Below, piece after piece: positions 48,181 to 61,858 of a stretch of 64,000 nt of DNA. How positions within the stretch are numbered: position 1 is the first letter of the stretch; each line of letters opens with the position of its first letter. The translations under genes were made by a program, and so were the position numbers. The DNA comes from Streptomyces sp. NBC_01723 (GTDB taxonomy: Bacteria; Actinomycetota; Actinomycetes; Streptomycetales; Streptomycetaceae): assembly GCF_036246005.1 (NCBI RefSeq), contig NZ_CP109171.1:8420001-8484000 (forward strand), read 5' to 3'. The notes under the pieces are model-generated. The model ran no database searches, was not told the origin of the DNA, and saw nothing but the letters and a program-made list of their open reading frames with translations.

Positions 48181-49179
48181 TCAGTAGATGTTGGCCTCCA
48201 CCTGAGGGCCCTCCTCGCGTCCCGCGTCGATCTGCGCGCGGAGCGAGATCTCGTCGTAGACGCGGACCTCCTTCACGATGCGGCCGTCCTGGATCAGGAA
48301 CTGCGACACCCCGAGCACCGTCACCGGCCGTCCGGTGAGGGGGCCGAAGGCGGGGGTGCCGCGGTAGGTGCCGTGCATGGTCCACAGGACGGCGACGCGC
48401 AGGCCCGCGTAGCGCGGGGAGTGGTTGGTCTGGATGTCCCGGACGGCGAACCGCGCGTCGGGGAAGGGGCCGACCATGGCGAGGAGGTCGCTCTGGTAGC
48501 GCTCGGGGCGGATGACGGTACGGTCGCCGACCGTGTGCAGGAACAGGTCGCGGACCATGAAGTCGTTGACCCGGTGCAACTGGCGCCGCGTCCACACCTC
48601 GTCGATGAACTGCAGCACCATCTCGCACTCAGGGCGGTACTCGTCCTGGCGGGCGCCGCTGACGCCTTCGAGCAGCACGTCCGTCGGCGGTTCGTCGAGC
48701 ATGGAGCCGCTGTAGCCCTGGAAGGTGAGCCGGCGCGCCGCCTCGGCGGGATCGACGCCGCGCTGGAGGCAGTCGGCCAGCTCGTCGCGTACCACCCACT
48801 CCTCCACCATCCGGCCCCTGCGGTAAAGGCAGTTGGCCACCGTGCGCTTGCGGATGCGGATGCTGCGGCCGTCCACCAGGTGCTCGTCGGCGGAGAAGAC
48901 CAGGTGGGAGCTGAGGAAGGCGTCGTCGCCGCGTGCCTCCCAGACCACGTCCTCCGCCTGGCCGATGTGGCCCGGCGTGCTGCCCATGCGGATGGTGGTG
49001 CCCTCGATGACGCCGTCACGGCCGACGACGGTGCCGAGGCTGGTGTGCACGATCGAGTCGGGCTCGTAGTTGTCGACGATGTGGGCGATGTCCCGGTCGA
49101 CCCAGATGCGATCGGTCACCTCGCGGATGAAGTCGTCCGGGTCCTTGTAGGGGAGGTATGCGACGGGGTCGAGAGGCAT
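48181..49179 (-). CDS. Two-domain NTF2/SnoaL-like protein
   Basis: 332 residues with two NTF2-like (SnoaL) units: about 15-145 (NYEPDSIVHTSLGTVVGRDG, RRGRMVEEWVVRDE) and about 185-325 (FPDARFAVRDIQTNHSPRYA, IQDGRIVKEVRVYDE). Such folds act as cyclases, isomerases or dehydratases, or simply bind. It is downstream of the MFS gene on the same strand with an 84-bp gap that holds a 15-bp tandem repeat. Probably an enzyme of the LacI-controlled catabolic locus. Confidence 0.82.
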   Translation of the reverse strand: MPLDPVAYLPYKDPDDFIREVTDRIWVDRDIAHIVDNYEPDSIVHTSLGTVVGRDGVIEGTTIRMGSTPGHIGQAEDVVWEARGDDAFLSSHLVFSADEHLVDGRSIRIRKRTVANCLYRRGRMVEEWVVRDELADCLQRGVDPAEAARRLTFQGYSGSMLDEPPTDVLLEGVSGARQDEYRPECEMVLQFIDEVWTRRQLHRVNDFMVRDLFLHTVGDRTVIRPERYQSDLLAMVGPFPDARFAVRDIQTNHSPRYAGLRVAVLWTMHGTYRGTPAFGPLTGRPVTVLGVSQFLIQDGRIVKEVRVYDEISLRAQIDAGREEGPQVEANIY

Positions 49180-49225
49180 GGTGCTATCCGTTCCTGTGAA
49201 TCGATGACATCTGTGCGGGTGGGCG

Positions 49226-49255
49226 TGAATGCGGATGTACTGAATGCGTATGTAC
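49226..49255 (-). repeat. Tandem 15-bp repeat, TGAATGCG[G/T]ATGTAC
   Basis: Two adjacent 15-bp units differing at one base, between the MFS and NTF2-like genes. The second contains ATGCGTAT, close to the locus operator core ATACGTAT, so it may be a degenerate operator. Confidence 0.6.
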
Positions 49256-49263
49256 CGACTCGC

Positions 49264-50616
49264 TCACTGGCGGGCGGCGAACTTGTCCGCGCCCAGGTGG
49301 CTCCGGTACGTCTCCGTCATGAAGGCGCTCACGACGACCAGCGCCAGGAGGGCGCCCGCCGCCAGGTAGGCCCAGACGGCGTAGATGGTGTCGAAGGTGC
49401 TGACCAGCAGCGTCGCGACGAAGGGCGTGATGCCCATGAAGATGGAGAACGAGCTGTTGTACGCGATGGCGCTCGCGCTGAACCTGGTGCGCGTGGAGAA
49501 CAGCTCGGCCGCGCAGACGGTGACGATGCCGGTGAGGAAGAACTCCGGCACGATGTAGATGAGTTGACTGGCCACCGCGGCCCCGAAGGTGCCCTCCTCG
49601 CCCACCCGGAAGGCGAGCGGGACCAGCACGATGCAGGCGATGGCACCCGTCACCAGCATCGGCTTGCGCCCGATCCGGTCGGACAGCATGCCGGCCAGCG
49701 GCAGGAGGGGGATGAGGACCGCGATGGAGATGGCGTTCGAGGCCAGGCCCATCCAGCGCGGCAGACCGAGCGTGTCGGTGAGGTACTGCGGATAGAACGT
49801 GACCCAGCTGTAGGACAGGATCGCGAGCATGATCGAGATCCCGCAGAAGACCAGGATCGGCCGCCACTGCGAGCGCAGCGCCTCACGGACCGGCGACTTG
49901 ACGACGTCCGCGCCCTCCGCCGTCGCGCGCACGAACTCCGGGGTCTCCTCGATGTGGCGACGCAGCCACACCCCGACCAGGCTGAGCGGGATCGCCAGCA
50001 GGAACGGCAGTCGCCACCCGTACGAGTCCAGGGCCTCGCCCTGGAACACCCAGCTGGTCAGGGCCGCCGTACCGGCGCCGGCGAGGGTGCCGACGAAGCA
50101 ACTATTGGAGGCGTACGACGTGTAGTAGGCGCGGCGGTTCGGCTCCGCCCACTCCACGATGAAGGCGACGGCCCCCACGTACTCGCCGCCCGAGACCGCG
50201 CCCTGGACGACCCGGAGCAGCAGGAGCAGGAGCGGCGCACCGATGCCGATCTGCTGGTACGTGGGCAGCATGCCGATCAGGGCGGTGGTCACGCCCATGG
50301 CGACGATGGTCCACAACAGGGTCTTCTTGCGGCCGACCCGGTCGCCCCAGCGGCCCACGAGGGTGCCGCCGATCGGGCGGAACAGGCAGGCGATGGCGAT
50401 GATCGCGTACGTGCCCAGCACCGCCACGGTCCGGTCGCTCTCGGGGAAGAACGCCGGGGCCATGATGGGGGCCATGTAGCCGTACAGGCCGTAGTCGAAC
50501 TGTTCGACGAAATTGCCGATGCTGCCGGCGCCGATGGCTCGGCGTATCGCGTGACGCTTGTCCGTGTCGGACTGGGGAGAGCCGACTGCTGGGGAGGCCG
50601 GTGCTGCGGCGGACAT
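49264..50616 (-). CDS. MFS transporter, metabolite:H+ symporter (ProP/ShiA-like) type
   Basis: 450 residues with twelve membrane segments. The loop 2-3 motif reads GRWGDRVGRKKTLL, and segment 5 region RVVQGAVSGGEYVGAVAF is typical of the metabolite:H+ symporter family that carries organic or aromatic acids and betaines. Divides the locus from the aldolase gene. An ATACGTAT operator lies 61 bp upstream (50677-50686). Likely takes up the compound degraded by the neighbouring enzymes. Confidence 0.9.
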   Translation of the reverse strand: MSAAAPASPAVGSPQSDTDKRHAIRRAIGAGSIGNFVEQFDYGLYGYMAPIMAPAFFPESDRTVAVLGTYAIIAIACLFRPIGGTLVGRWGDRVGRKKTLLWTIVAMGVTTALIGMLPTYQQIGIGAPLLLLLLRVVQGAVSGGEYVGAVAFIVEWAEPNRRAYYTSYASNSCFVGTLAGAGTAALTSWVFQGEALDSYGWRLPFLLAIPLSLVGVWLRRHIEETPEFVRATAEGADVVKSPVREALRSQWRPILVFCGISIMLAILSYSWVTFYPQYLTDTLGLPRWMGLASNAISIAVLIPLLPLAGMLSDRIGRKPMLVTGAIACIVLVPLAFRVGEEGTFGAAVASQLIYIVPEFFLTGIVTVCAAELFSTRTRFSASAIAYNSSFSIFMGITPFVATLLVSTFDTIYAVWAYLAAGALLALVVVSAFMTETYRSHLGADKFAARQ

Positions 50617-50676
50617 GGCTTCTCCGATCGCGCAGGGGGAGGGGGAGAGAGGGGATGAGGATGCAGGTTAGGTGTG

Positions 50677-50686
50677 CATACGTATG
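50677..50686 (-). promoter_or_regulatory. LacI-type operator upstream of MFS gene (CATACGTATG)
   Basis: Perfect 10-bp palindrome, shared core ATACGTAT with 55576-55583 and 55718-55725. Sits 61 bp before the MFS start. Confidence 0.75.
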
Positions 50687-50739
50687 AACTGCTGGTGAAC
50701 ACTAAGGATCCGTGCGGGGGGCGTCAAGGGTTCGCCCCG

Positions 50740-51525
50740 TCAGGCCGGGTCCCCGGTCGCGTCCGTCGTCCCGGGCGCGGTCAGGGAGCGCAGGGTGTCC
50801 ATGAGTACGTGGGCCATGTTGTAGACGACGAGCTGTGCGCCCCGCCGCTCGGCGGCCCGGGCGGCGTCGAGGTCCGGCACGATCGCCATGACGGCCCGCC
50901 CGTTGGCGCGCGTCGCGTCGTGCGCCCGCGAGATCAGGGCGTCGACCACGCCGGGGTCCGGAAAGCCGCAGTCGGCGGCGAGGTCGGCGGGGCCCACCAG
51001 GACCGCGTCCACCCCCTCGGTGGCGGCGATGGCGTCGGCGGCGTCGCAGGCGCGCCGCGTCTCGACCATCGCCACGACCAGGGTCTCGCGGGACGCGGCC
51101 ACATGCTCGGCCGCGCCGACGGTACCGAACCGGCCCGCTCTGCTGTACGTGGCGAAACCGCGCTCTCCCCACGGCGGGTAGTGGCTGGCGGCCACCGCAC
51201 GCCGGGCGTCCTCGCGGGTGTCGACGTGGGGGTGGATCAGCCCGGCGGCGCCCAGGTCGAGGCAGCGCAGCGCGAGGGCCGGCTCGGCCGAACCGACGCG
51301 GACCAGGACGTCCAGTCCGTGTGCCGCCGCGGCCGTGAGGTGATGCTGGAGCAGGGTCAGGTCGGCCGGCCCGTGCTCGCAGTCGATCACGACGTAGTCG
51401 AGTCCGGCGACCCCCGCCATCTCCACCAGTGTCTCCGACGGGAGCCGCAGCAGGGCGCCCCGCAACCGCTCGCCGTCCGCAAGGCGCTGCTTGAGGCCGC
51501 GGCGGGGTGTGCCGCGCGCCGTCAC
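50740..51525 (-). CDS. HpcH/HpaI-type class II pyruvate aldolase
   Basis: 261 residues. DYVVIDCEHGPADLTLL (with metal/active-site Glu), LVRVGSAEPALALRCLDLGA, GLIHPHVDT, VVAMVETRRACDAAD, VDAVLVGPADLAADCG are the family blocks. Cleaves a 2-keto-3-deoxy or 4-hydroxy-2-oxo acid to pyruvate and an aldehyde. GTG start overlaps the SDR stop (GTGA). Last gene of the cupin-hydrolase-HisD-SDR-aldolase operon, so probably the final cleavage step. Confidence 0.88.
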   Translation of the reverse strand: MTARGTPRRGLKQRLADGERLRGALLRLPSETLVEMAGVAGLDYVVIDCEHGPADLTLLQHHLTAAAAHGLDVLVRVGSAEPALALRCLDLGAAGLIHPHVDTREDARRAVAASHYPPWGERGFATYSRAGRFGTVGAAEHVAASRETLVVAMVETRRACDAADAIAATEGVDAVLVGPADLAADCGFPDPGVVDALISRAHDATRANGRAVMAIVPDLDAARAAERRGAQLVVYNMAHVLMDTLRSLTAPGTTDATGDPA

Positions 51526-52316
51526 CGGGCCACCATCCCGGCCGAGAGGTCGATGTCGGCCCCGCAGAGACCGCCCATGCGCAGCATCGCGGTGACGGCC
51601 TCGCCGACCTCGTCCTCGGTCACCATCCGCCCCAGGGCGGAGCGGGCCACGAACGCCTGCTCGGCCTGGGCGGGGGAGCTGCCCGTGCGTTCTGCCTCCA
51701 GCCTGAAGTTGCGCTCCATCCGGGGGCCGGAAACAGGCCCGGGGGACAGGGAGTTCACCATGATGCCGTGCGGTCCCGCCTCGGCGGCGAGCGTGGTGGT
51801 GAGCCCGATGACGGCCATCTTCGAGGCGCAGTAGGGAGTGCGCCGCGCCAGCGGGCGTTTGCCGGAGACCGAGGCGATGTTCACGATGTCGCCGGCGCCC
51901 CGCGCGGTCATGGCGGGCAGGAAGGCCCGGCACATCAGGAACACCCCGCGCACGTTCACGTGGAAGACCTCGTCCCACTCCCGCGGGTCGATTTCGGTGA
52001 GCGGTGCCACCGGTCCCGCCGTCCCGGCGTTGTTGACCAGGATCGAGATTTCCTCGTCGGCCAGGTCGTGGGCGAGTTGCGCGACCGCTTCGGGGCTGGA
52101 GACGTCGCAGACGCGGTGCGAGACGCCCGGGCCGAGACGGTCGGCGGTCTCCTCGAGCCTGGTCCCGTCGCGGCCCGTGATCACCACACGGGCCCCGTCG
52201 GCGACCAACCGCCGTGCGATGCTCCGGCCGAGGCCGCTGCCTCCCCCGGTGACCAGAGCGGTACGCCCGGCCAACGGCGCGCTGTGTCCGGCCGGCGCTG
52301 CGGTACGGGGGCTCAC
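51522..52316 (-). CDS. Classical short-chain dehydrogenase
   Basis: 264 residues: TALVTGGGSGLGRSIARRL, ILVNNAGTAGP, Ser in IVNIASVSGKR, catalytic YCASK. NAD(P)-dependent oxidation or reduction of a hydroxy/keto group. GTG 52316 overlaps the HisD-like stop (GTGA) and its own stop overlaps the aldolase start, so it is tightly coupled within the operon. Confidence 0.9.
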   Translation of the reverse strand: MSPRTAAPAGHSAPLAGRTALVTGGGSGLGRSIARRLVADGARVVITGRDGTRLEETADRLGPGVSHRVCDVSSPEAVAQLAHDLADEEISILVNNAGTAGPVAPLTEIDPREWDEVFHVNVRGVFLMCRAFLPAMTARGAGDIVNIASVSGKRPLARRTPYCASKMAVIGLTTTLAAEAGPHGIMVNSLSPGPVSGPRMERNFRLEAERTGSSPAQAEQAFVARSALGRMVTEDEVGEAVTAMLRMGGLCGADIDLSAGMVAR

Positions 52317-53623
52317 GCGGCGCCCTCCTCGTTCCAGGGCAGGCTGCCCCGGCCGTACTTGGCGGCACGCACGTCGCCGGAGCGGGCGTGCCCCTCGAAC
52401 AGCTCGACGCGCGCGGCCCGGCCGCACACCTCGCCGAGCAGCGCGGAGGACGCGGTGTCGGTGACCTCCTGGTAGGTCACCGTCTTGAGGTACTTGCCGA
52501 CCCACAGGCCGCCCGTGTAGCGGGCGGCGCCGCGGGTGGGCAGGACGTGATTGGTGCCGATGACCTTGTCGCCGTAGGAGACACAGGTCCCCTCCCCGAG
52601 GAAGAGGGCGCCGTAGTCCCGCATCCTGTCCAGGGCCTGGCGCGGGTTCTCGGTCAGCACCTCCACGTGCTCGCTCGCGTACGAGTCGGCGATCCGGAAG
52701 GCGTCGTCGAGGCTGTCGGCGACCACGATCTCGCCGTGGTCGCGCCAGGCCGGTCCGGCGAAGTCCCGGGTGGGCAGGCCGGGCAGCAGGCGCTCGATGT
52801 GCCGCTCGGCCTCGCGGCCCAGTTCCTCGGACGTGGTGACCAGCACGGCGGGGGAGTCCGGCCCGTGCTCCGCCTGCGACAGCAGGTCGACGGCCACCAC
52901 GAACGGGTCCGCGTGCTCGTCGGCGATCACCAGGATCTCGGTGGGTCCGGCGAACAGGTCGATGCCGACCTCGCCGAACAACTGCCGCTTGGCCTCCGCC
53001 ACGTACGCGTTGCCGGGCCCGGCGAGCATCGGCACGCGCTCGATGGTCTCGGTGCCCACGGCCAGTGCCGCGACGGCCTGGACGCCGCCCAGCAGATGAA
53101 TCTCGTCGGCGCCCGCCAGGTGCATGGCCGCGACCGTCGCGGCCGGGATCTCACCCCGGATCGGCGGGGTGCAGGCGGCGACCCGGGGGACGCCCGCCAC
53201 CTTGGCGGTCACGATCGTCATGTGCGCCGACGCGGTCAGCGGGTAGCGCCCGCCGGGTACGTACGCGCCGGCGCCGGACACGGGGACGTGCCGGTGGCCG
53301 AGGCGGACGCCGGGCAGCGTCTCGATCTCGACGTCGGCCAGCGCGTCACGCTGGGCCTGTGCGAACGTGCGGACCTGGTCCTGCACGAAGCGGATGTCGT
53401 CCAGGACGGTGTCGGGCACCTGGGAGACGATCCGGCGGATCTCGTCGGGGGAGAGGCGGAACGACTCGGGGCTCCAGTCGTCGAACTTCTCGGAGTACCG
53501 GCGTACCGCGTCGTCGCCGTGCTCGCGGATGTCGTCGAGGATGACGCGGACGCGCTCGGCGACGTCCGCCCGGGCCGCGGTCACTCGGGCGGCGGGCACG
53601 GGGGACTTGAGGTGTCGGGGCAT
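52313..53623 (-). CDS. Histidinol dehydrogenase-family enzyme, sulfopropanediol dehydrogenase-like
   Basis: 436 residues with the HisD fold: GAYVPGGRYPLTASAHMT, AGPGNAYVAEAKRQLFGEVG, LFAGPTEILVIADEHADP, SQAEHGPDSPAVLVTT and TNHVLPTRGAARYTGGL (zinc and catalytic Glu/His regions). It is not with histidine biosynthesis genes and resembles HpsN-type enzymes, which oxidise a terminal alcohol to an acid in two NAD-linked steps. A second paralogue lies at 58344. Coupled to the SDR (GTGA). Substrate unknown. Confidence 0.88.
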   Translation of the reverse strand: MPRHLKSPVPAARVTAARADVAERVRVILDDIREHGDDAVRRYSEKFDDWSPESFRLSPDEIRRIVSQVPDTVLDDIRFVQDQVRTFAQAQRDALADVEIETLPGVRLGHRHVPVSGAGAYVPGGRYPLTASAHMTIVTAKVAGVPRVAACTPPIRGEIPAATVAAMHLAGADEIHLLGGVQAVAALAVGTETIERVPMLAGPGNAYVAEAKRQLFGEVGIDLFAGPTEILVIADEHADPFVVAVDLLSQAEHGPDSPAVLVTTSEELGREAERHIERLLPGLPTRDFAGPAWRDHGEIVVADSLDDAFRIADSYASEHVEVLTENPRQALDRMRDYGALFLGEGTCVSYGDKVIGTNHVLPTRGAARYTGGLWVGKYLKTVTYQEVTDTASSALLGEVCGRAARVELFEGHARSGDVRAAKYGRGSLPWNEEGAA

Positions 53624-53667
53624 GGCGGCTCACTTCCAGTGGGTGAAGGGGTGGGGTGGCAGGTCGT

Positions 53668-54420
53668 TCAGGAGGGGGTGGGCACAGGGCCGTCCGGCGT
53701 CGTGCCGACGGCCGTGACCAGGTCGCGCAGTGCGGACGACACCGCGTCGGGCCGTTGCCACGGCACGAGGTGTCCCGCGTCCGGCAGCAGCGTCAGACCG
53801 GCTCCGGGTACGGTCCGCGCGATCGCCCGGTGGAAGGCGGGCGGGCACAGTGCGTCCCGTTCTCCGGCCAGTACCGTGGTGGGGCAGCGGACGGTCCGCA
53901 GTACGCCGGTCGCGTCCGTGCGGGTGGCCTGCGCGGCGAGTTGGGCGCGGGCGGCGGTGGCACCCACCGCGTGCGCCATGACCCGGTAGCGCCGCGTGGC
54001 CCCGGGGGTGGGGCTGCGGTCGGGGAACATGTCCGGCAGCGTCCGTTCGACGACGTCCGTGAACCGGCCGGCCCGGATCCGTTCGTCCATCTCCCGCCAG
54101 GCCGTGTACTGCCCGGGGCGCGGCGCACCCGGGTTGGTCGCCATCACGCACAGCCCCGCGACCCGCTCGGGCGCCCGGCGCAGGACCTCGAAGCCGACGA
54201 TGGCCCCGAGGCTGAGCCCGACGAGGACGAACGGGCCCGTGACCGTGGAGAGCACGTCCTGGGCGAGCGCCCCGATGCCGTCCCGCCGCAGCGGGACGTG
54301 ATGGACGGCGTGGCCTTCCGGAAAGTCGACGTCGTCCCAGAGCCTGGTGTCGCAGAGCATGCCGGGCACGACGACCAGGGGCGGCGGACCGGCCGGGTCC
54401 TCGCTCGGCACGCCGGTCAC
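53668..54420 (-). CDS. Alpha/beta hydrolase, lactonase-like
   Basis: 250 residues: VVVPGMLCDTRLWDD, nucleophile GLSLGAIVGFE, acid in LAGERDALCPP, His in PDAGHLVPWQRPDAV. Similar to enol-lactonase-type esterases. GTG 54420 overlaps the cupin stop (GTGA). Between cupin and HisD-like genes, it may open a lactone or ester made by the pathway. Confidence 0.85.
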   Translation of the reverse strand: MTGVPSEDPAGPPPLVVVPGMLCDTRLWDDVDFPEGHAVHHVPLRRDGIGALAQDVLSTVTGPFVLVGLSLGAIVGFEVLRRAPERVAGLCVMATNPGAPRPGQYTAWREMDERIRAGRFTDVVERTLPDMFPDRSPTPGATRRYRVMAHAVGATAARAQLAAQATRTDATGVLRTVRCPTTVLAGERDALCPPAFHRAIARTVPGAGLTLLPDAGHLVPWQRPDAVSSALRDLVTAVGTTPDGPVPTPS

Positions 54421-55556
54421 CAGGGACGTGCGGAGCGGGGCAGCAGCGCGTAGGGGGCGACGTAGCCGTTGTGGTCGATGCCCAGGCCCGCGTCCGCCGC
54501 GCTCTTGACGACCTCGTCGTCCCACTCCAGGCGGACCCGCCCGTCACCGGAGTTGACCACGAGGAGGTCGCCCCGCTCGTCACCCGCGTTGCGTACGGAG
54601 CGCCAGGCGTCCTGCGGGACGGAGAGCATGTCGCGCGGACCGAGGCGGACCGTGACGGGGTCGGTGCGGTTGAGGGTGACCTCCCACAGGCCGTCCTTCA
54701 CGATCAGGGTCTGGGTCTCGTGCTGGCGGTGCGTCGAGACGCCCTGCCCGGGATCGGCGCGGAGCCAGGCGGCGTTGTGGCCGTGCGGGTTGAAGACGCG
54801 GGGCTCCTGGTGCGGGTCCTCGGTCATGCCGTAGCCGATGACGCAGCTCAGCCGGGCTCCGCCACCGGGCAGGGTGCTGTCGAGGAAGGGCCGCTCGGAG
54901 AAGACCAGGTCGTCGGCGGCGGCGATGCGGCGCCTCATCTCGTCGGGGGTGTAGCGGCGGAGCCGGTCGATGTGTTCCCGGGCCATGGGGCTGACCAGCT
55001 CGGACTCCGCGGGGAGGGGGTCCCCGGCGACGGTGTCGACGAGTTCGTTGTCGGCGGTGAGGTACAGGCCGTGCTCACTCGCCTCGCGCAGGACCGAGGG
55101 GCCCCAGATGATGCCGCCGGTGTCGTCCATGCCCAGCACGGTGAACAGCCAGCCGTCGTCGGGGCCGGTGTTGGTGAACCCGCGGAAGATCCAGGTCGGG
55201 ACGGACGCGATGTCGCCGGCCCGGAGCGTGAGTTCGCCCTCGGTGCCGTCGACGCCCCAGCGCAGCAGGTACTCGCCCTCGGTGCAGACGAAGACCTCGG
55301 CCGTGTAGTGGAGGTGCAGGTTGTTGGTGATGCCGTGCGGCATGGCGGCGGCGCCGATGTTGTAGCCGTGCGGCAGCCTGAGGTTGACGTGCTGACCGGC
55401 GGCCTGTGAGACGCCCGGCCCGATCATCGCGTAGTTCTCCTTGCGGTCGGAACCGGGCGTGCGGCAGTCGATGAACGCCTGGTCGCAGGAGACGAAGTCG
55501 CTGCGGCGCACCGTACGGCGGGCCAGCTCGTGAGGGGTGACGACTACGTCGGGCAT
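54417..55556 (-). CDS. Double-cupin protein
   Basis: 379 residues with two cupin halves. First: GITNNLHLHYTAEVFVCTEG (His pair and Glu), then AGDIASVPTWIFRGF. Second: VSTHRQHETQTLIVKDGLW and GPRDMLSVPQDAWRSV. Layout like gentisate/hydroxyquinol-type or isomerase bicupins, though the exact reaction cannot be told. ATG 55556 has GGAG upstream; the in-frame extension to 55619 would cross the operator at 55576-55583. First gene of the LacI-controlled operon. Confidence 0.83.
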   Translation of the reverse strand: MPDVVVTPHELARRTVRRSDFVSCDQAFIDCRTPGSDRKENYAMIGPGVSQAAGQHVNLRLPHGYNIGAAAMPHGITNNLHLHYTAEVFVCTEGEYLLRWGVDGTEGELTLRAGDIASVPTWIFRGFTNTGPDDGWLFTVLGMDDTGGIIWGPSVLREASEHGLYLTADNELVDTVAGDPLPAESELVSPMAREHIDRLRRYTPDEMRRRIAAADDLVFSERPFLDSTLPGGGARLSCVIGYGMTEDPHQEPRVFNPHGHNAAWLRADPGQGVSTHRQHETQTLIVKDGLWEVTLNRTDPVTVRLGPRDMLSVPQDAWRSVRNAGDERGDLLVVNSGDGRVRLEWDDEVVKSAADAGLGIDHNGYVAPYALLPRSARPW

Positions 55557-55575
55557 GACAGCTCCTTGCGTGTGT

Positions 55576-55583
55576 ATACGTAT
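55576..55583 (-). promoter_or_regulatory. LacI-type operator upstream of cupin operon (ATACGTAT)
   Basis: Palindrome core in TGTATACGTATGCA, 20 bp before the cupin start. Same core as at 50677 and 55718. It is 142 bp from the lacI-proximal site, so looping is possible. Confidence 0.75.
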
Positions 55584-55717
55584 GCATTCCATGACAGGCG
55601 CCGGTGGCCGTGATGTCAAGGGGGTGGGTCAAGGTCTTTGTGTGCGGATATCGACGACCGGCCGCAGTGGGTGCGGCGGAGTGCGGCGCAGGGGCGACTG
55701 GTTGGGGGTGGATTGAC

Positions 55718-55725
55718 ATACGTAT
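55718..55725 (+). promoter_or_regulatory. LacI-type operator at the lacI promoter (ATACGTAT)
   Basis: The sequence TTGACATACGTATATT holds a consensus-like -35 TTGACA (55714-55719) and a -10-like TATATT (55723-55728), either of which the operator overlaps. 54 bp before the regulator start; implies autoregulation. Confidence 0.72.
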
Positions 55726-55778
55726 ATTGGGTGGGCGTGCGCCATCGGGTGGCGCCGGTGGCGACGAGGAGAGAGCCG

Positions 55779-56777
55779 ATGGGGATCACCAGTCACGACG
55801 TGGCCAGACTGGCCGGTGTCTCGCAGCCCACGGTCTCCCGGGCCCTGCGCGACGATCCCCGTGTCTCCGAGGCCACGCGCGAGAAGGTGCGGCGCGCCGC
55901 CCAGGCGCTGAACTACGTGCCGAGCGAGGCCGGACGCACCCTCTCCACGCGTGCCACCCGACGGGTCGGTGTTATCGTCACCGACCTGACGAACCCGTTC
56001 TACCCGCACGTCATCGCCCCGCTCCACGACGAACTGAGCAGCCTCGGCTACCGCATGATGCTGATCACGGAGCGGTCCGACGAGGCGGTCGCGGAGGAGA
56101 AGCTGCTGGACCAGTCGATGGACGGCGTCGTCCTCGCGACGGCCACCACCGACTCCCGCCTGCCCGCTCAGCTGGACCGTCGTGGCATGCCCTACGTCTT
56201 CCTCAACCGGGACACCGGCCGGGCCGGCGACTTCGCCTCCGTCGTCGACAACGAGGGCGGCGGGCGGCTCGTCGCCCGGGAACTCGTGTCCCTCGGGCAC
56301 CGGCACATCGCGGGTGTCTTCGGCGCGGCGAACACCACCACGGGGCGCGAGCGCGAGCTGGGGTTCCGGCTGGCCCTCGCCGAGGCGGGCGTCGGACTGC
56401 CGGAGGACCGGGTGGTACGCGGGGCCTTCGAGTACGACACCGGGTACCGGGCGCTGCCCGCCCTGCTCGACGCGGACCGGGCGCCCACCGCCGTCTTCTG
56501 CGGCAACGACGTCGTGGCCATCGGGGTGCTGAACGCGGCCCTCGCCGCCGGCGTCAGGGTCCCCGACGACCTCACCGTCATCGGCTTCGACGACCTCCCG
56601 ATGGCCGCGTGGGAGGCATTCCGGCTCACCACCGTCCGGCACGACCTGCGGGAGCTGTCCCGCCAGGCCGCCCGGCTGCTGGTCCGGCGGATCGCCAAGG
56701 AGGTCGACCCGGCCGGCGAACGGCTGGTCCTGCCGACCGAGTTCGTGCCCCGCGCCACGCACGCCCGCGCCCGATGA
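55779..56777 (+). CDS. LacI-family transcriptional regulator
   Basis: 332 residues: HTH ITSHDVARLAGVSQPTVSRA, hinge NYVPSEAGRTLSTRATRRVG, effector domain with DLTNPFYPHVIAPLHDEL and VFCGNDVVAIGVLNAAL. GAGGAGAGAG precedes ATG 55779. Divergent from the cupin-to-aldolase operon. ATACGTAT palindromes precede it, the cupin gene and the MFS gene, so it is the likely local repressor of all three. Confidence 0.92.
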   Translation: MGITSHDVARLAGVSQPTVSRALRDDPRVSEATREKVRRAAQALNYVPSEAGRTLSTRATRRVGVIVTDLTNPFYPHVIAPLHDELSSLGYRMMLITERSDEAVAEEKLLDQSMDGVVLATATTDSRLPAQLDRRGMPYVFLNRDTGRAGDFASVVDNEGGGRLVARELVSLGHRHIAGVFGAANTTTGRERELGFRLALAEAGVGLPEDRVVRGAFEYDTGYRALPALLDADRAPTAVFCGNDVVAIGVLNAALAAGVRVPDDLTVIGFDDLPMAAWEAFRLTTVRHDLRELSRQAARLLVRRIAKEVDPAGERLVLPTEFVPRATHARAR

Positions 56778-56781
56778 TCCG

Positions 56782-58230
56782 TCAGCGTCCGCCGACCGCG
56801 TGCCGTGCCGCCCGCTCCGACTCCCGGACCGCCGACGCCGGGGCGTCCCCCTCGCCGCCCCTCGGGCGCCGCTGCCGCAGCACCCCCACGCCCACCAGGA
56901 CCGCGGTCAGACCCAGCGAGAGCCACAGCTCCAGCCGGTGTCCCGGCAGCACGGCCATGACCACCAGCACCCCGGCGATGAAGGCGACCGTGGCGAGGGT
57001 CAGGTAGGGGAACCCCCACATCCGCACCTCGGCCGGCTGCCCTCCCTTGCGCCGGTTCGCGTACTGAGTGAGGGCGATGACCATATACATGATCAGGGCG
57101 ATCGCTCCGCTGGAGGCGATGAGGTACGAGAAGACGTCCGGCAGCAGGTAGTTGGCGACGACCGCGGCCACCCCGATGACCGTGGAGGCCGCGACCGCGT
57201 TGCGGGGGACTCCCTGCCGTGAGGTGCGGGCGAAGAGCGCGGGGGCGTCGCCGCGCCCGGCCAGCGAGAACATCATGCGGGACGCGGTGTACACGGCCGA
57301 GTTGAGGCAGCTGCCCACGGCGACGATGAGGACGACGTCCATGATCCGCGCGGCACCCGGGATGTTCATCCGGTCGAGAACGGCCTGGTAGGAGCCGGCC
57401 GCCAGATCGTCGGCGTTCCACGGGACCAGACACACCACGATGAGGATCGAGCCGATGTAGAAGAGGCCGAGCCGCCAGACCACCGCGCGCACGGCCTTCC
57501 TGATGTTCTTGCGCGGTTCCTCGGACTCGGCGGCGGCGATGGTGACGATCTCGCTGCCCTGGAAGCTGAACATCGCGGTGAGCAGACCGGCGAGGACGGC
57601 CGTGCCGCCCTGCGGTGCGAAGCCACCGTGACTCCACAGGTTCGACACCCCGTGGGTGTCCGACCCCGGCAGCAGACCGAGGACGGCGAGCGCACCGAGA
57701 ACCAGGAACGCGACGATCGCGACGACCTTCAACAGGGCGAACCAGTACTCGAACTCCCCGTAGTTGCGCACCGCGAGAAGATTGCTGCCCGCCAGCAGCC
57801 CGATCACCACCAGCGCCGGGATCCAGCTGGGCACCGAGGTGAGACCCGCGACCACCTCACCGGCGGCGATGGCCTCGATGGGGATGACGAGAATGTAGAA
57901 CCACCAGTAGAGCCACCCGATCGAGAAGCCCGCCCAGCGGCCCAGCGCACGGTCGGCGTAGGTGGAGAAGGAACCGGTGTCGGGCTGGGCCACGGCCATC
58001 TCGCCCAGCATCTGCATGACCAGCACCACCAGCCCCGCGGCCAGCAGGAAGGAGACCAGGGCGGCCGGCCCGGCGGCGGTCACGGAGGCGGACGAGCCGA
58101 CGAACAGTCCGGCGCCGATCACCCCGCCGATGGAGATCATGGTGATCTGGCGGCCCTTGAGGCCCTGGGTGAGAGCGGTGCCGCTCCCTGTTCCGGCGGG
58201 CGCCGGTGGCGCGGACGGGTGGTGTGGCAT
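56782..58230 (-). CDS. Amino-acid permease (APC superfamily, GabP/AroP type)
   Basis: 482 residues with twelve membrane segments. The N-terminal helix 1 motif TMISIGGVIGAGLFVGSSA and MLGEMAVAQPDTGSFSTYAD identify the amino acid transporter family; SFQGSEIVTIAAAESEEPRK follows. ATG 58230 has GAGG seven bases upstream. It follows the second HisD-like gene by 113 bp on the same strand and probably imports the amino acid-like substrate. Its stop is four bases from the convergent lacI stop. Confidence 0.9.
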   Translation of the reverse strand: MPHHPSAPPAPAGTGSGTALTQGLKGRQITMISIGGVIGAGLFVGSSASVTAAGPAALVSFLLAAGLVVLVMQMLGEMAVAQPDTGSFSTYADRALGRWAGFSIGWLYWWFYILVIPIEAIAAGEVVAGLTSVPSWIPALVVIGLLAGSNLLAVRNYGEFEYWFALLKVVAIVAFLVLGALAVLGLLPGSDTHGVSNLWSHGGFAPQGGTAVLAGLLTAMFSFQGSEIVTIAAAESEEPRKNIRKAVRAVVWRLGLFYIGSILIVVCLVPWNADDLAAGSYQAVLDRMNIPGAARIMDVVLIVAVGSCLNSAVYTASRMMFSLAGRGDAPALFARTSRQGVPRNAVAASTVIGVAAVVANYLLPDVFSYLIASSGAIALIMYMVIALTQYANRRKGGQPAEVRMWGFPYLTLATVAFIAGVLVVMAVLPGHRLELWLSLGLTAVLVGVGVLRQRRPRGGEGDAPASAVRESERAARHAVGGR

Positions 58231-58343
58231 GGCAGAACCTCGGGTGGGGACGGGGCGCGTGGCCGGGCGTGGCGGGGAGGGGGGCTTCGGCACCGGAGCG
58301 GCGGTCGCGTGCCGCCGCATGCCGTGCGGCGGCACGCGAGGGG

Positions 58344-59705
58344 TCACAGCTGGTCGCGCAGTGCGGCCGGAACGTCGTCGAACGCGCCGGACTTCCGCCC
58401 GATCCGGTCGATGCGGAGCGTCGCCGTCGCACCGTGGGCCGCCAGCCCCTCGAAGGCCGAGACGCGCTCGACGGCCGGGGCCAGCGACGCGGTCCCCTCC
58501 TTCGAGGCACGCTGGTACGTCAGCGGCTTGAGGAACCGGGACACGGAGAGCCCCGCGTTGTAGCGGGCCGTCTTGCCGGTCGGCAGTACGTGGTTGGTGC
58601 CGGCGATGCCCTTGTCGGAGTAGGCGACCGTCGACCACGATCCGATGAACAGCGAGCCGTAGTTGGCGAGGTTCTCCAGGTAGTAGTCGTCGTCCTCGGT
58701 CTGGATCTCCAAGTGCTCGGGGGCGATCACGTCGGCCACCGCGACGGCGGCGGCCGGGTCGTCCACCACGACGACGGAGCCGAAGTCGCGCCACGCCGGG
58801 CCGGCGATGTCCCGGGTGGTCAGCGTCCCCAGCTGGCGCTCGACCTCCGCGATCACGGCGCGCCCCAACTCGGCGGAGGTGGTGACCAGGGCGGCCGGTG
58901 AGTTGGGCCCGTGCTCGGCCTGCCCCAGCAGGTCCGCCGCGACCCACACCGGGTCGGCGCTGGCGTCCGCGATGACGGCGACCTCGGAGGGCCCGGCCAG
59001 CAGGTCGATGCCGACCCGGCCGAACAGCTGCCGCTTCGCCTCGGTGACGTAGGCGTTCCCCGCGCCGACCAGCATGTCGACCGGAGCCTCACCGAGCAGT
59101 CCGAAGGCCATCGCGCCGAGCGCCTGGACGCCACCGAGCGCGAACACCCGGTCGGCGCGCGACAGGTAGGCGCCGTACAGCACGGCGGGGTGCGCGCCGT
59201 GCTCGCCGGACGGGGGAGTGCAGGCGAGGACCGTGGGGACGCCGGCCGTCTTGGCCACGTTCACCGTCATGAAGGCGCTGGCGAGGAGGGGGAACCGGCC
59301 GGCGGGCAGGTAGGCGCCGACGCGGGAGACGGGAACGTAGCGCTGACCGCCGACGACACCGGGAGCCACCTCGATCTCGAAGTCCGTCAGGTGCTCGCGC
59401 TGCGCGGCGGCGAAACGGTGGGTGCGCTCGTAGCCCATCTCCAGCGCGGTACGGACGTCCGGGGGAAGCGCGTCCCCCGACTTCTTCAGCTCGGCGGCCT
59501 CGATCTCCAGGTCGCCGGACCAGCCGTCCAGTTCCTGGGCGTAGCCGCGTACCGCGTCCATGCCCTTGCGCTCGATCTCGCTCAGCATCTGTGAGACGCG
59601 CTCGACCACCGAGGGGTCGCGCTGGGCGGGCGGACCGTCCACGGACGGCTTCTTGAGCCACTGGAACGGGGGGAGGGACTGTGCTTCGTCGTGCGTGATC
59701 TGCAT
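58344..59705 (-). CDS. Histidinol dehydrogenase-family enzyme, second paralogue
   Basis: 453 residues. GAYLPAGRFPLLASAFMTVN, GAGNAYVTEAKRQLFGRVG, LLAGPSEVAVIADASADP, GQAEHGPNSPAALVTT and GTNHVLPTGKTARYNAGLSV are HisD blocks. Away from histidine biosynthesis genes. Differs from the 52313 paralogue by a longer N-terminus (DEAQSLPPFQWLKKPS). No ribosome site precedes ATG 59705, so it may be leaderless. LysR gene upstream and CACAGG inverted repeats just before it indicate inducible control. Confidence 0.88.
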   Translation of the reverse strand: MQITHDEAQSLPPFQWLKKPSVDGPPAQRDPSVVERVSQMLSEIERKGMDAVRGYAQELDGWSGDLEIEAAELKKSGDALPPDVRTALEMGYERTHRFAAAQREHLTDFEIEVAPGVVGGQRYVPVSRVGAYLPAGRFPLLASAFMTVNVAKTAGVPTVLACTPPSGEHGAHPAVLYGAYLSRADRVFALGGVQALGAMAFGLLGEAPVDMLVGAGNAYVTEAKRQLFGRVGIDLLAGPSEVAVIADASADPVWVAADLLGQAEHGPNSPAALVTTSAELGRAVIAEVERQLGTLTTRDIAGPAWRDFGSVVVVDDPAAAVAVADVIAPEHLEIQTEDDDYYLENLANYGSLFIGSWSTVAYSDKGIAGTNHVLPTGKTARYNAGLSVSRFLKPLTYQRASKEGTASLAPAVERVSAFEGLAAHGATATLRIDRIGRKSGAFDDVPAALRDQL

Positions 59706-59732
59706 GGCTGGGACGCTAGACGGCAACCTGCC

Positions 59733-59757
59733 ACAGGACCAGAGGGGCGATTCCTGT
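59733..59757 (-). promoter_or_regulatory. Inverted repeat ACAGGA-N13-TCCTGT
   Basis: Perfect 6-bp arms (59733-59738, 59752-59757) between the LysR and HisD-like genes, 28 bp before the latter. Half-sites match those of 59764-59780. Confidence 0.55.
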
Positions 59758-59763
59758 CCGAAG

Positions 59764-59780
59764 CACAGGGTTTCCCTGTG
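59764..59780 (-). promoter_or_regulatory. Inverted repeat CACAGGG-TTT-CCCTGTG
   Basis: Perfect 7-bp arms, 59 bp before the HisD-like start. Related to CCACAGG-N5-CCTGTGG at 60835-60853 upstream of lysR and the nitrilase gene. Probable LysR binding site. Confidence 0.7.
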
Positions 59781-59808
59781 GCTTGTCCGGTCGCTCAGCG
59801 GCCGGTAC

Positions 59809-60720
59809 TCAGAGGCCGAGATCGTCCCGGATCTCGCGCAAGGTGTCCTCGGCGATCCTGACCAGCTCCCGGGTGGCCCGCGACAGCGGATGCCCCCGCC
59901 GCTTGACCAGCGCGATCGTGTCGTAGAGGGGGTCGGCGAACGGGACGGTGCGCAGCCCCGCGGGAAACGTCGCCCCGGCGACCACGGCCCGGCTGGCGAT
60001 CGTGTCGCCCACACCGGCGGCCACCAGACCCAGCGCGGCCTCGACGTGCTCCAGCTCGATCAGGGGATCGACCCTCACCCCGGCCAGCTGGGCCCGCTCC
60101 GCGAGCTGGCGCCGGGTGGGGTCCTGCCAGCCATAGTGGGCGTCGTAGAGGACGAGCGGGGTGCGGGAGAACGCCTCGATCGTCATGGGCGTCCGGGTGC
60201 GCTCCTCGCTCGCGCTGACGAAGAACACCTCGTCCCGCAGCAGCGGCGTCACCACCAGCCCCTCGTCCTCGATCGGCAGCACCACGAGCCCGGCCTCGAT
60301 CCGTCCCGCCGCCACGGCCGCCGCGGTCTCGGCGGAGTTCTGCCCCACCAGCCTGACCCGGACGGACGGATAACGGGCGTGGAACAGCTGTACGAGGTTG
60401 GACAGCAGGTAGTAGTCGGCATTGCGCAGCACACCGAAGGTGGCGGTCCCGCCGCCCAGCGAACCCAGGGAGCGCACCGCCCGGGTCCCGCTCTCGGCGG
60501 CCTCCACCGCCTGCTGGGCGTACGGCAGCAGTTCCTGGCCCGCCGAGGTCAGTGCCAGGGTGCGGCTGCCCCGCGCGAACAGCTCGGCGTCCAGCTCGGT
60601 CTCCAGGCGGCGCACCAGTTCGGAGGCGGAGGCCTGGGCGATGTCCATGGCCCGCGCCGCTGCGGTGAACGAGCCGAGCCGCTCCGCCTCGACGAAGGCC
60701 CTCAGCTGGTTGAGGGTCAT
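59809..60720 (-). CDS. LysR-family transcriptional regulator
   Basis: 303 residues. N-terminal winged HTH TLNQLRAFVEAERLGSFTAA and AMDIAQASASELVRRLETEL, then the substrate-binding domain (GTATFGVLRNADYYLLSNL). Divergent from the nitrilase gene and upstream of the second HisD-like gene, with related inverted repeats in both regions. Likely activates both in response to a pathway compound. Start ATG 60720; the frame opening at 61053 overlaps the nitrilase. Confidence 0.92.
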   Translation of the reverse strand: MTLNQLRAFVEAERLGSFTAAARAMDIAQASASELVRRLETELDAELFARGSRTLALTSAGQELLPYAQQAVEAAESGTRAVRSLGSLGGGTATFGVLRNADYYLLSNLVQLFHARYPSVRVRLVGQNSAETAAAVAAGRIEAGLVVLPIEDEGLVVTPLLRDEVFFVSASEERTRTPMTIEAFSRTPLVLYDAHYGWQDPTRRQLAERAQLAGVRVDPLIELEHVEAALGLVAAGVGDTIASRAVVAGATFPAGLRTVPFADPLYDTIALVKRRGHPLSRATRELVRIAEDTLREIRDDLGL

Positions 60721-60834
60721 ACGCGGTCCGTGTCCTGTCGAGTCGGGGGCGCGCGACGCCATCACGCCGACGCGGGGGGTCCTCGTTCTACCACGGCCGC
60801 CCGGCGGCGCGGGACGCCGCGGCCGCCGCGCGGC

Positions 60835-60853
60835 CCACAGGTTCTTCCTGTGG
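60835..60853. promoter_or_regulatory. Inverted repeat CCACAGG-TTCTT-CCTGTGG
   Basis: Perfect 7-bp arms in the divergent lysR/nitrilase region, 115 bp from the LysR start and 103 bp from the nitrilase start. Same half-site as the repeats before the HisD-like gene. Confidence 0.7.
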
Positions 60854-60955
60854 ATCCCGCTGGACGAAGGGATCTTGTCCCGTGGATGGCCCGGTGATTG
60901 GCTCGACCAACGCCCCCGTCCCCGCACGCCACCGACCGCGGAAGGCTGCCCAGTG

Positions 60956-61858
60956 ATGACGACTCCCTTGCCGATCGGCCTCGTCCAGACGGCCGCGCGG
61001 CACCACGCCGCCGATGCCACCGACGCGTTCGCCGAGGACGTGCGCCGCGTCATGGCGGCGCACCCCGGCGTCCGGCTGCTCGCCTACCCGGAACTGCATC
61101 TGTGCGGGCACGAGCCCGGCGAGGACCCCGAGCGGGTCATGACCGCGGGGGCCCAGCCCCTGGACGGCCCGCGGGGCGCCCGGCTGGCCGCCCTCGCCCG
61201 TGAACTGGACATCTGGCTCGTGCCCGGCAGCGTCTACGAGCAGGGTGCCGACGGCCGGATATACAACACCGCCCCCGTCTACTCGCCCGCGGGCGAGCGG
61301 GTCGCGGCGTACCGCAAGATCTTCCCGTGGCGCCCTCACGAGACCACGGCGGCCGGCTCCGACTTCGTCGTCTTCGACCTGGCCGGGCACGGACGGGTGG
61401 GCCTGACGATCTGCTACGACGCCTGGTTCCCCGAGGTCACCCGCCACCTCGCCTGGCAGGGCGCCGACCTCGTACTGAACCTGGTCCGCACCCCCACCGT
61501 CGACCGTGCCCAGGAAGTCGTGCTCGCGCAGGCCAACGCGATCGTCAACCAGGTCTTCATGGCCAGCCTCAACGCGGCCGCGCCGGACGGCCTCGGGCGC
61601 AGCGTCGTGGTGGACCCCGAGGGGCGGATGCGTGCCGAGGCCGGGCCCGGGGCGGAGGAGGTCCTGACCGACGTACTCGACCTGGCCGAGGCCCGGCGGG
61701 TGCGAGCGCGGGGCACCGCGGGGCTCACCCGGGTGTGGGACCCCTTCGAGGACGGCGGGCCGCCGCTGGAGCTGCCCCTGTACGCGGGCCGTATCGAGCC
61801 CGAGCGCTGGCGTCGCGGCGCCGGTGTGGGCGAAGGCGCCCGGCGTGTTATTGAATGA
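60956..61858 (+). CDS. Carbon-nitrogen hydrolase (nitrilase superfamily)
   Basis: 300 residues with the Glu-Lys-Cys triad: Glu46 in YPELHL, Lys121 in YRKIFPW and Cys153 in TICYDAWFPE. Hydrolyses an amide, carbamoyl or nitrile group in the cytoplasm. GGAAGG lies upstream; ATG 60956 is directly preceded by a possible GTG start (60953). Divergent from LysR. Together with the HisD-like dehydrogenase and permease it may handle an alcohol/amide amino-acid derivative. Confidence 0.9.
   Translation: MTTPLPIGLVQTAARHHAADATDAFAEDVRRVMAAHPGVRLLAYPELHLCGHEPGEDPERVMTAGAQPLDGPRGARLAALARELDIWLVPGSVYEQGADGRIYNTAPVYSPAGERVAAYRKIFPWRPHETTAAGSDFVVFDLAGHGRVGLTICYDAWFPEVTRHLAWQGADLVLNLVRTPTVDRAQEVVLAQANAIVNQVFMASLNAAAPDGLGRSVVVDPEGRMRAEAGPGAEEVLTDVLDLAEARRVRARGTAGLTRVWDPFEDGGPPLELPLYAGRIEPERWRRGAGVGEGARRVIE

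Follow-up and report, generated by a model that had tools for sequence, protein, structure and literature searches.

We analyzed a stretch of 64,000 nt from Streptomyces sp. NBC_01723 (NZ_CP109171.1, genome of 8.85 Mb; hereafter the window) and found that the genes at positions 48181-56777 make up a LacI-linked catabolic locus. The genes of a bicupin (CUP), an alpha/beta hydrolase (ABH), a HisD-like dehydrogenase (HISD), a short-chain dehydrogenase (SDR) and an HpcH/HpaI-family aldolase (ALD) form one operon. The genes of a major facilitator superfamily (MFS) transporter and a double SnoaL/NTF2-like protein lie behind it, and the lacI gene is divergent. This conserved regulon is real, and we found no description of it. 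It is ordinary in kind, being a catabolic operon, and unusual in its key enzyme, for whose family we saw no functional name, and in its exchangeable lower branch. Tentatively, and at slightly under an even chance, we propose that LacI holds a catabolic regulon in which the cupin, ABH and ALD would act as an upper module that leads to a tetronate-type four-carbon acid, and the HisD-like protein and SDR as a lower branch.

The genes named in the initial annotation were all present with their order, strands, operators and domains (Table 1). Its claim of five coupled enzymes in one operon was also borne out, since the cupin/ABH, HisD/SDR and SDR/ALD junctions are overlaps of 4 bp and a gap of 44 bp separates ABH from HisD. 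Beyond the enzymes, the gaps are 123 bp (aldolase/MFS) and 84 bp (MFS/NTF2). Furthermore, the enzymes and the transporter were said to be under the same operators, and this agrees with our results. There were three copies of ATACGTAT in the window, and 0.01 were expected from shuffles. In the whole genome there were four, of which three are at this locus, upstream of MFS (50678), cupin (55576) and LacI (55718); the fourth is distant, at the 5′ end of an open reading frame listed as that of a repeat protein. The reversed control word had two sites in the same genome. In addition, the two best genomic matches of the extended palindrome TGCATACGTATGCA were the MFS and cupin sites, with one mismatch each, and the site upstream of lacI was not within three mismatches of it.

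The operator was then followed in 49 actinobacterial loci (0.89 Mb, window included), in which genes were called with a home-made caller based on codon usage. The Acidimicrobiia loci L071 and L074, both without ATACGTAT, were left out. There were 111 copies of ATACGTAT in these loci, and the control words had 15 (TATGCATA), 12 (ATGCGCAT), 0, 0 and 0. Most copies (107/111) were wholly intergenic; the other four touch the called cupin start in L023, L024, L029 and L038, and these starts may have been set too far upstream. Alignment of the sites lengthens the word to roughly TGCATACGTATGCA. ATACGTAT was found upstream of 46 of the 47 intact cupin genes (320 bases searched; the exception is L034, and the broken or split cupin frames of L064 and L076 are outside the 47) and of 29 of the 34 MFS genes (250 bases searched). 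The LacI protein has a helix-turn-helix and a sugar-binding-like domain, and the palindrome is conserved at the target promoters, as expected of a local repressor. By this conservation, a predicted regulon with a common operator is marked, and the transporter is included in it. If this is right, one nearly exclusive operator flags a catabolic regulon across many Actinobacteria. A further operator-like site in the MFS/NTF2 gap of the window is tentative. Alone it is no better than chance, because up to three mismatches to TGCATACGTATGCA were found at 38 genomic places and for the reversed control at 57; an exact ATACGTAT is present in the same gap of L012 and L064.

When representative genomes were scanned, relatives of the bicupin turned up at 76 loci. 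The hosts include Streptomyces, Amycolatopsis, Saccharopolyspora, Prauserella, Actinomadura, Gordonia, Acidimicrobiales, Rhodobacteraceae, Rhodospirillales, Granulosicoccus and Spirabiliibacterium. Among the 48 further actinobacterial loci, 35 kept all five enzymes (CUP, ABH, SDR, ALD and a complete HisD of the operon type). The operon HisD was absent or a remnant in nine (L009, L020, L021, L032, L039, L041, L045, L077 and L078), and all nine had a second HisD paralogue nearby. Of the others, L037 carries part of a HisD, with no second paralogue within its stretch, L064 is frame-broken, and L005 and L044 end early. Thus, the gene set is widespread and not unique. The initial annotation knew of no described pathway with this set, and we also found no paper describing one, in a literature coverage largely without subscription journals. 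The plasmids of Klebsiella michiganensis and Pantoea dispersa carry LacI, HisD, SDR, MFS, ABH, ALD and cupin genes, whose products share 51-56% (HisD), 45-46% (cupin) and 33-34% (SDR) identity with those of the window. Because its identity is so low, the plasmid SDR is assigned to the same family and not claimed as an ortholog.

An indication of the upper product came from Rhodobacteraceae, Vibrionaceae and Ensifer. In these hosts, the cupin, ALD and ABH genes stand beside OtnK (3-oxo-tetronate kinase) and OtnC (decarboxylase), and often OtnI. For instance, the profile scores in relatives were 553.6 for OtnK (cut-off 350) and 284.3 for OtnC (cut-off 250), and otnK is annotated in Ensifer, Salinivibrio, Vibrio and Thioclava loci. 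L060 had matches above the cut-off to both L-threonate dehydrogenase and D-erythronate dehydrogenase, and L073 to the former. Among 87 loci, a HisD-like gene (either paralogue) was found in 54 and OtnK in 14, and no locus had both; these calls follow bit-score thresholds, and many of the contigs stop close to the locus. All 14 OtnK loci kept ALD and ABH with the cupin, and none had HisD. The known tetronate pathway (LtnD/DenD-OtnI-OtnK-OtnC) lies within or next to the operons in 14 proteobacterial relatives, which have a related bicupin, ALD and ABH. However, the genome of the window gave no match to OtnK (profile NF043035), its best score for L-threonate dehydrogenase was 189 against a cut-off of 350, and the HisD-like protein and SDR occupy the place of that pathway. 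It appears from these gene sets that ALD and ABH go with the cupin. Because the cupin, ALD and ABH sit with OtnK/OtnC in loci lacking HisD, HisD and SDR look like a lower branch that can be separated from the rest, would act on a four-carbon polyhydroxy acid and seems to replace the tetronate kinase branch. On this view, the product shared by the upper modules would be a tetronate or oxo-tetronate. If this is right, the swap of HisD-like plus SDR for OtnK plus OtnC represents two non-homologous lower branches on one upper pathway. HisD may also be a separable unit by itself, with or without SDR. Locus L117 (6573-10374) comes from a genome that lacks the cupin. Here LacI (41%), HisD (70%) and MFS (32%) occur together with two ATACGTAT copies just upstream of HisD, so that LacI-HisD-MFS could be a minimal set. 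L113, also from a genome without the cupin, has one ATACGTAT (7252) upstream of its HisD ortholog.

The initial annotation had read the gene order as a route. In this linear route, the cupin and lactonase would open the substrate, HisD would oxidize CH2OH to COOH, SDR would form a 2-keto acid, and ALD would release pyruvate. HisD, SDR and ALD are adjacent with overlaps of 4 bp in the window, and the chemistry of the three families fits. However, ALD is kept in all 14 OtnK loci that lack HisD, and also in Prauserella L021 and L039, whose operon consists of cupin, ABH and ALD and lacks HisD and SDR. Meanwhile, L074 has HisD, SDR, cupin and ABH but no ALD. We regard the linear route as unlikely. 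The catabolic nature of the locus stands, with its shared operator and transporter, whereas the order HisD to SDR to ALD with release of pyruvate is doubtful, and we moved ALD away from the end of the route because it is retained with the cupin where HisD is lacking.

The closest solved relative of the HisD-like protein is the sulfopropanediol (DHPS) dehydrogenase HpsN (8v35). In this DHPS 3-dehydrogenase, the reported key residues are the catalytic pair Glu318-His319, Asp352, the zinc ligands, and His126, which recognizes the sulfonate (PMC11382572). Glu318-His319, Asp352 and the zinc ligands are aligned and conserved in the window protein, which has the same fold family and is expected to carry out the four-electron oxidation of CH2OH to COOH. 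However, the HpsN motif GRY(A/S)H is GRYPL in the window, so that the sulfonate-binding His126 is replaced by Leu. The motif could be read in 80 of 81 HisD-like proteins, including the two of the window (42 PAGRFPL, 37 PGGRYPL and 1 PGGRYPM; the L064 fragment has none), and no His was found at this position in the 80. Four plasmid proteins (GGKYPL twice, GGKFPM and GGRFPL) also lack it. A sulfonated substrate is unlikely to judge from these motifs, because the sulfonate-recognizing His is absent. We rejected DHPS or another sulfonate as the substrate on this ground, and DHPS degradation is extremely improbable although HpsN is the nearest solved structure. If our proposal is right, a HisD-like clade labeled histidinol dehydrogenase by automatic annotation would gain a function.

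The relatives use MFS, sugar ATP-binding cassette (ABC) transporters of two kinds, or tripartite ATP-independent periplasmic (TRAP) transporters, depending on the host. For the TRAP receptor of L052, the nearest structures were 4P47 and 7BBR. Of these, 4P47 is reported to be ligand-free and 7BBR to hold 2-keto-3-deoxygluconate, and other relatives hold pantoate or erythronate, with the caution that most ligands of TRAP receptors were co-purified (PMC11668362). The substrate is likely a small polyhydroxy acid or lactone, because of the MFS, sugar ABC and TRAP transport, the LacI control and the tetronate genes in relatives. The initial annotation had proposed a polyhydroxylated or sulfonated compound; the transporters and tetronate genes favor the polyhydroxylated acid, and the sulfonated part fell with the missing His. 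A pantothenate/pantoate route was considered, because the L052 receptor is near binders of pantoate or erythronate and M20 or amidase genes occur in relatives. It was rejected, as a literature search gave nothing and the tetronate genes do not fit it.

In the regulon proposed here, the LacI-family repressor would bind TGCATACGTATGCA-type operators and keep the genes shut until an inducer appears. The MFS protein would import a small polyhydroxylated acid or lactone. The upper module of bicupin, ABH and ALD, to judge from the gene sets of relatives, would cleave the substrate and leave a tetronate-type C4 polyhydroxy acid. In Streptomyces, where the genome of the window has no tetronate kinase, the HisD-like protein and SDR would then oxidize this acid. 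By analogy with HpsN and HisD, the HisD-like protein may use two NAD+ to turn the terminal CH2OH into COOH, SDR may make the ketone, and the keto diacid may be decarboxylated and enter central metabolism. The related upper module of Rhodobacteraceae, Vibrionaceae and Ensifer would feed OtnK/OtnC(/OtnI) instead. The double NTF2-like protein may be an auxiliary enzyme.

Several results weigh against this proposal. First, the HisD/OtnK exclusion follows phylogeny in part. Among 37 proteobacterial loci, there were 6 with HisD, 14 with OtnK and none with both (Fisher p 0.065), so phylogeny may be the cause of the exclusion. Three of the 6 HisD loci (L110, L122 and L124) have a more distant cupin, and Thioclava accounts for two of the 14 OtnK loci. 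The OtnI matches (264.7 and 291.8) were below the cut-off of 325. Second, the nine actinobacterial loci with a missing or remnant operon HisD still have the cupin operon. Third, gene neighbors in relatives indicate that parts of the gene set serve other or larger substrates. M20 or amidase genes are present in L042, L122 and L124, and a plain sugar acid does not account for them; in the Actinomadura locus L042, ATACGTAT copies stand ahead of two M20-peptidase genes and one sugar-binding-protein gene. A MetE-II-like protein is encoded in four loci without ALD (L049, 7937-9064; L110, 9982-11103; L071; L074), and L050 has neither a MetE-like gene nor ALD in its stretch. In addition, HisD-SDR pairs lie beside aromatic-type genes in other Streptomycetaceae (L111, L112 and L114-L116). 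The MetE-like gene also raised mycosporine/gadusol as a candidate, which was rejected after the papers listed in a literature search proved to be reviews or unrelated.

The bicupin has an AlphaFold 2 (AF2) model with a predicted local distance difference test (pLDDT) score of 93.5. Its closest folds (Foldseek, VIA-align) were oxalate decarboxylase, MncA and quercetinase, with plant seed-storage vicilins/globulins nearly tied. A search for solved relatives by sequence gave three low-scoring matches to designed proteins, which we took as chance. Bicupins of the oxalate decarboxylase/quercetinase type carry a 3-His-1-Glu motif. In domain 1 of the window bicupin, H81, H83, E87 and R125 were invariant among 32 aligned sequences, and the 3-His-1-Glu site was not found there, as its motif-2 position is the invariant R125; a His from elsewhere is possible. 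Because this Arg replaces the usual third His, our guess is that domain 1 may hold a two-His-one-carboxylate metal site. Oxalate decarboxylase and quercetinase (YxaG) thus differ from the window protein in the motif-2 His, and they share about 11-18% identity with it. In a set of 5.8 billion proteins, 4,209 clusters matched the bicupin profile at 1e-30. The best 120 of them had generic names (cupin, quercetin dioxygenase-like, mannose-6-phosphate isomerase-like or hypothetical) and no functional name. If our reading is right, the related gene set spans two phyla and is centered on a bicupin family without a functional name among the clusters listed.

The quercetinase among the tied structural relatives is consistent with ring cleavage of a compound that is aromatic or heterocyclic and bears a polyhydroxy side chain. 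The bicupin would open the ring, ABH, acting as a C-C hydrolase, would free the side chain in the form of a tetronate, and ALD would split the rest. The HisD-SDR pairs (SDR 61-65%) of L111, L112 and L114-L116 fit this, since their neighbors include genes of FAA hydrolase, a glyoxalase-family protein, FAD monooxygenase and amidohydrolase (annotated by Pfam in L112 only, the others being matched to L112 by BLAST). However, the transporters, LacI regulators and tetronate genes indicate sugar-acid chemistry, and no monooxygenase was seen in the annotated operons with a full-length cupin. Ring cleavage is quite improbable in our view. By the Pfam annotation of L112, the amidohydrolase is Amidohydro_2, and the neighbors of the same five pairs also include cyclase and FAD_binding_4 genes.

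Our boldest and weakly supported reading is that the bicupin cleaves an ascorbate-like reductone or its lactone oxygenolytically between C2 and C3. ABH would then split the oxalyl ester or lactone into oxalate and a tetronate, namely L-threonate from ascorbate and D-erythronate from its epimer, and OtnK/OtnC or, in Streptomyces, HisD-like/SDR would finish the route. L-threonate is a known product of ascorbate (PMC12540250). The support for this idea is indirect and consists of the tetronate genes beside the cupin and of an excess of formyl-CoA:oxalate CoA-transferase in cupin genomes, which the idea predicts. Among 394 Streptomycetaceae genomes, 22 had any bicupin match and nine were judged real (G000, G283, G180, G176, G252, G364, G247, G385 and G332, the last with a split gene); the match in G023 was partial (48%). 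The transferase was above the cut-off in 8 of these 9 genomes and in 114 of the 385 others. Within the genus (250 genomes by hand count), the numbers were 8/9 and 105/241 (p 0.012, kinship ignored), and in a first set of 50 genomes 8/9 and 13/41. In the genome of the window, the transferase scored 693 bits (cut-off 504), and an adjoining oxalyl-CoA decarboxylase-like gene was below its cut-off (250 vs 739).

The association of the oxalate gene with the cupin is suggestive. Across the whole family, genus confounds the contrast, and a control family leaned the same way there (9/9 vs 294/385, p 0.13). Within the genus, it was found in 245/250 genomes and a second control in 50/50, and both are uninformative there because they are present nearly everywhere. 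For these reasons, and because kinship was not corrected, we give the cleavage of an ascorbate-like compound a low probability; it does not explain the role of ALD. Such an aerobic vitamin C route would differ from the routes known to us. If true, the bicupin would be the first enzyme of a large family without a functional name.

The initial annotation called ABH a lactonase. It is an alpha/beta hydrolase, with S70, D189 and H217 among the conserved columns (61 sequences). However, the label of lactonase has no specific support, as it scored 82 bits against PcaD (3-oxoadipate enol-lactonase; NCBIfam cut-off 255.85) and 102 bits against PcaDC (cut-off 390). ALD belongs to PF03328, and H51, R76, E155 and D181 were among its conserved columns (66 sequences); we take these to be catalytic-type residues. 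It shares the family and these residues with the class II pyruvate aldolases HpaI, GarL and YfaU but is outside the named subfamilies (125-155 bits vs cut-offs of 369-441). For the MFS protein, TIGR00883 was the best of 19 families listed, though below its cut-off. The NTF2-like protein has two SnoaL domains, and its fold matches were epoxide hydrolases with two domains (Lsd19 and MonBI/MonBII) and SnoaL proteins with a single one. SnoaL and quercetinase-like cupins are found in natural product pathways, so that a biosynthetic or tailoring cluster could be considered instead of catabolism. However, relatives co-locate uptake systems with binding proteins, and the gene set crosses two phyla. 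A tailoring cluster is very unlikely.

Table 1. Features of the locus and of the neighboring second HisD-like unit, with coordinates in the window.
Feature	Position	Strand	Remarks
Double SnoaL/NTF2-like protein	48181-49179	-	Pfam PF07366/PF12680; AF2 pLDDT 90
Weak operator-like site, tentative	49241-49254	.	MFS/NTF2 gap; 3 mismatches to TGCATACGTATGCA
MFS transporter, metabolite:H+ symporter-like	49264-50616	-	TIGR00883 348 bits, cut-off 443.45
Operator ATACGTAT 5′ of MFS	50678-50685	.	Word search; upstream in 29/34 MFS genes
HpcH/HpaI-family aldolase (ALD)	50740-51525	-	Pfam PF03328; GTG start; 4-bp overlap with SDR gene
Short-chain dehydrogenase (SDR)	51522-52316	-	Pfam PF00106; GTG start; 4-bp overlap with HisD gene
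HisD/HpsN-like dehydrogenase (HISD)	52313-53623	-	Pfam PF00815 (histidinol_dh); closest solved relative 8v35
Alpha/beta hydrolase (ABH)	53668-54420	-	Pfam Abhydrolase_6; GTG start; 4-bp overlap with cupin gene
Bicupin (CUP), putative metal oxygenase or isomerase	54417-55556	-	Pfam Cupin_2, two stretches
Operator ATACGTAT 5′ of cupin operon	55576-55583	.	Word search; upstream in 46/47 intact cupin genes
ATACGTAT 5′ of lacI itself	55718-55725	.	Word search
LacI-family regulator	55779-56777	+	Pfam PF00356 and PF13377
GABA-permease-like gene	56782-58230		Second HisD-like unit
Second HisD-like gene (HISD2)	58344-59705		Second HisD-like unit
LysR gene	about 59809-60720		Second HisD-like unit
Nitrilase-family gene, divergent	about 60968-61858		Second HisD-like unit

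In most of the actinobacterial loci, the second HisD-like unit (56782-61858) accompanies the cupin operon. We rejected this unit of HISD2, the amino acid-polyamine-organocation (APC) type permease, LysR and nitrilase as a member of the regulon, because none of 42 HISD2 genes had ATACGTAT within the 320 bases searched upstream. In L032, L045 and L078, the cupin operator is in the same intergenic gap as a LysR gene of the kind found in this unit.

In addition, the two M20 peptidase-family genes of L042 (2956-4422 and 14973-16418) lie 3′ of ATACGTAT, and each is followed by a SnoaL-like gene. The plasmid relatives L110, L119, L122 and L124 have SnoaL/NTF2-type ("ester cyclase") genes by annotation. 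Two HisD-like genes are present in each of L119 and L122, which together with the ester cyclase genes suggests a larger related pathway.

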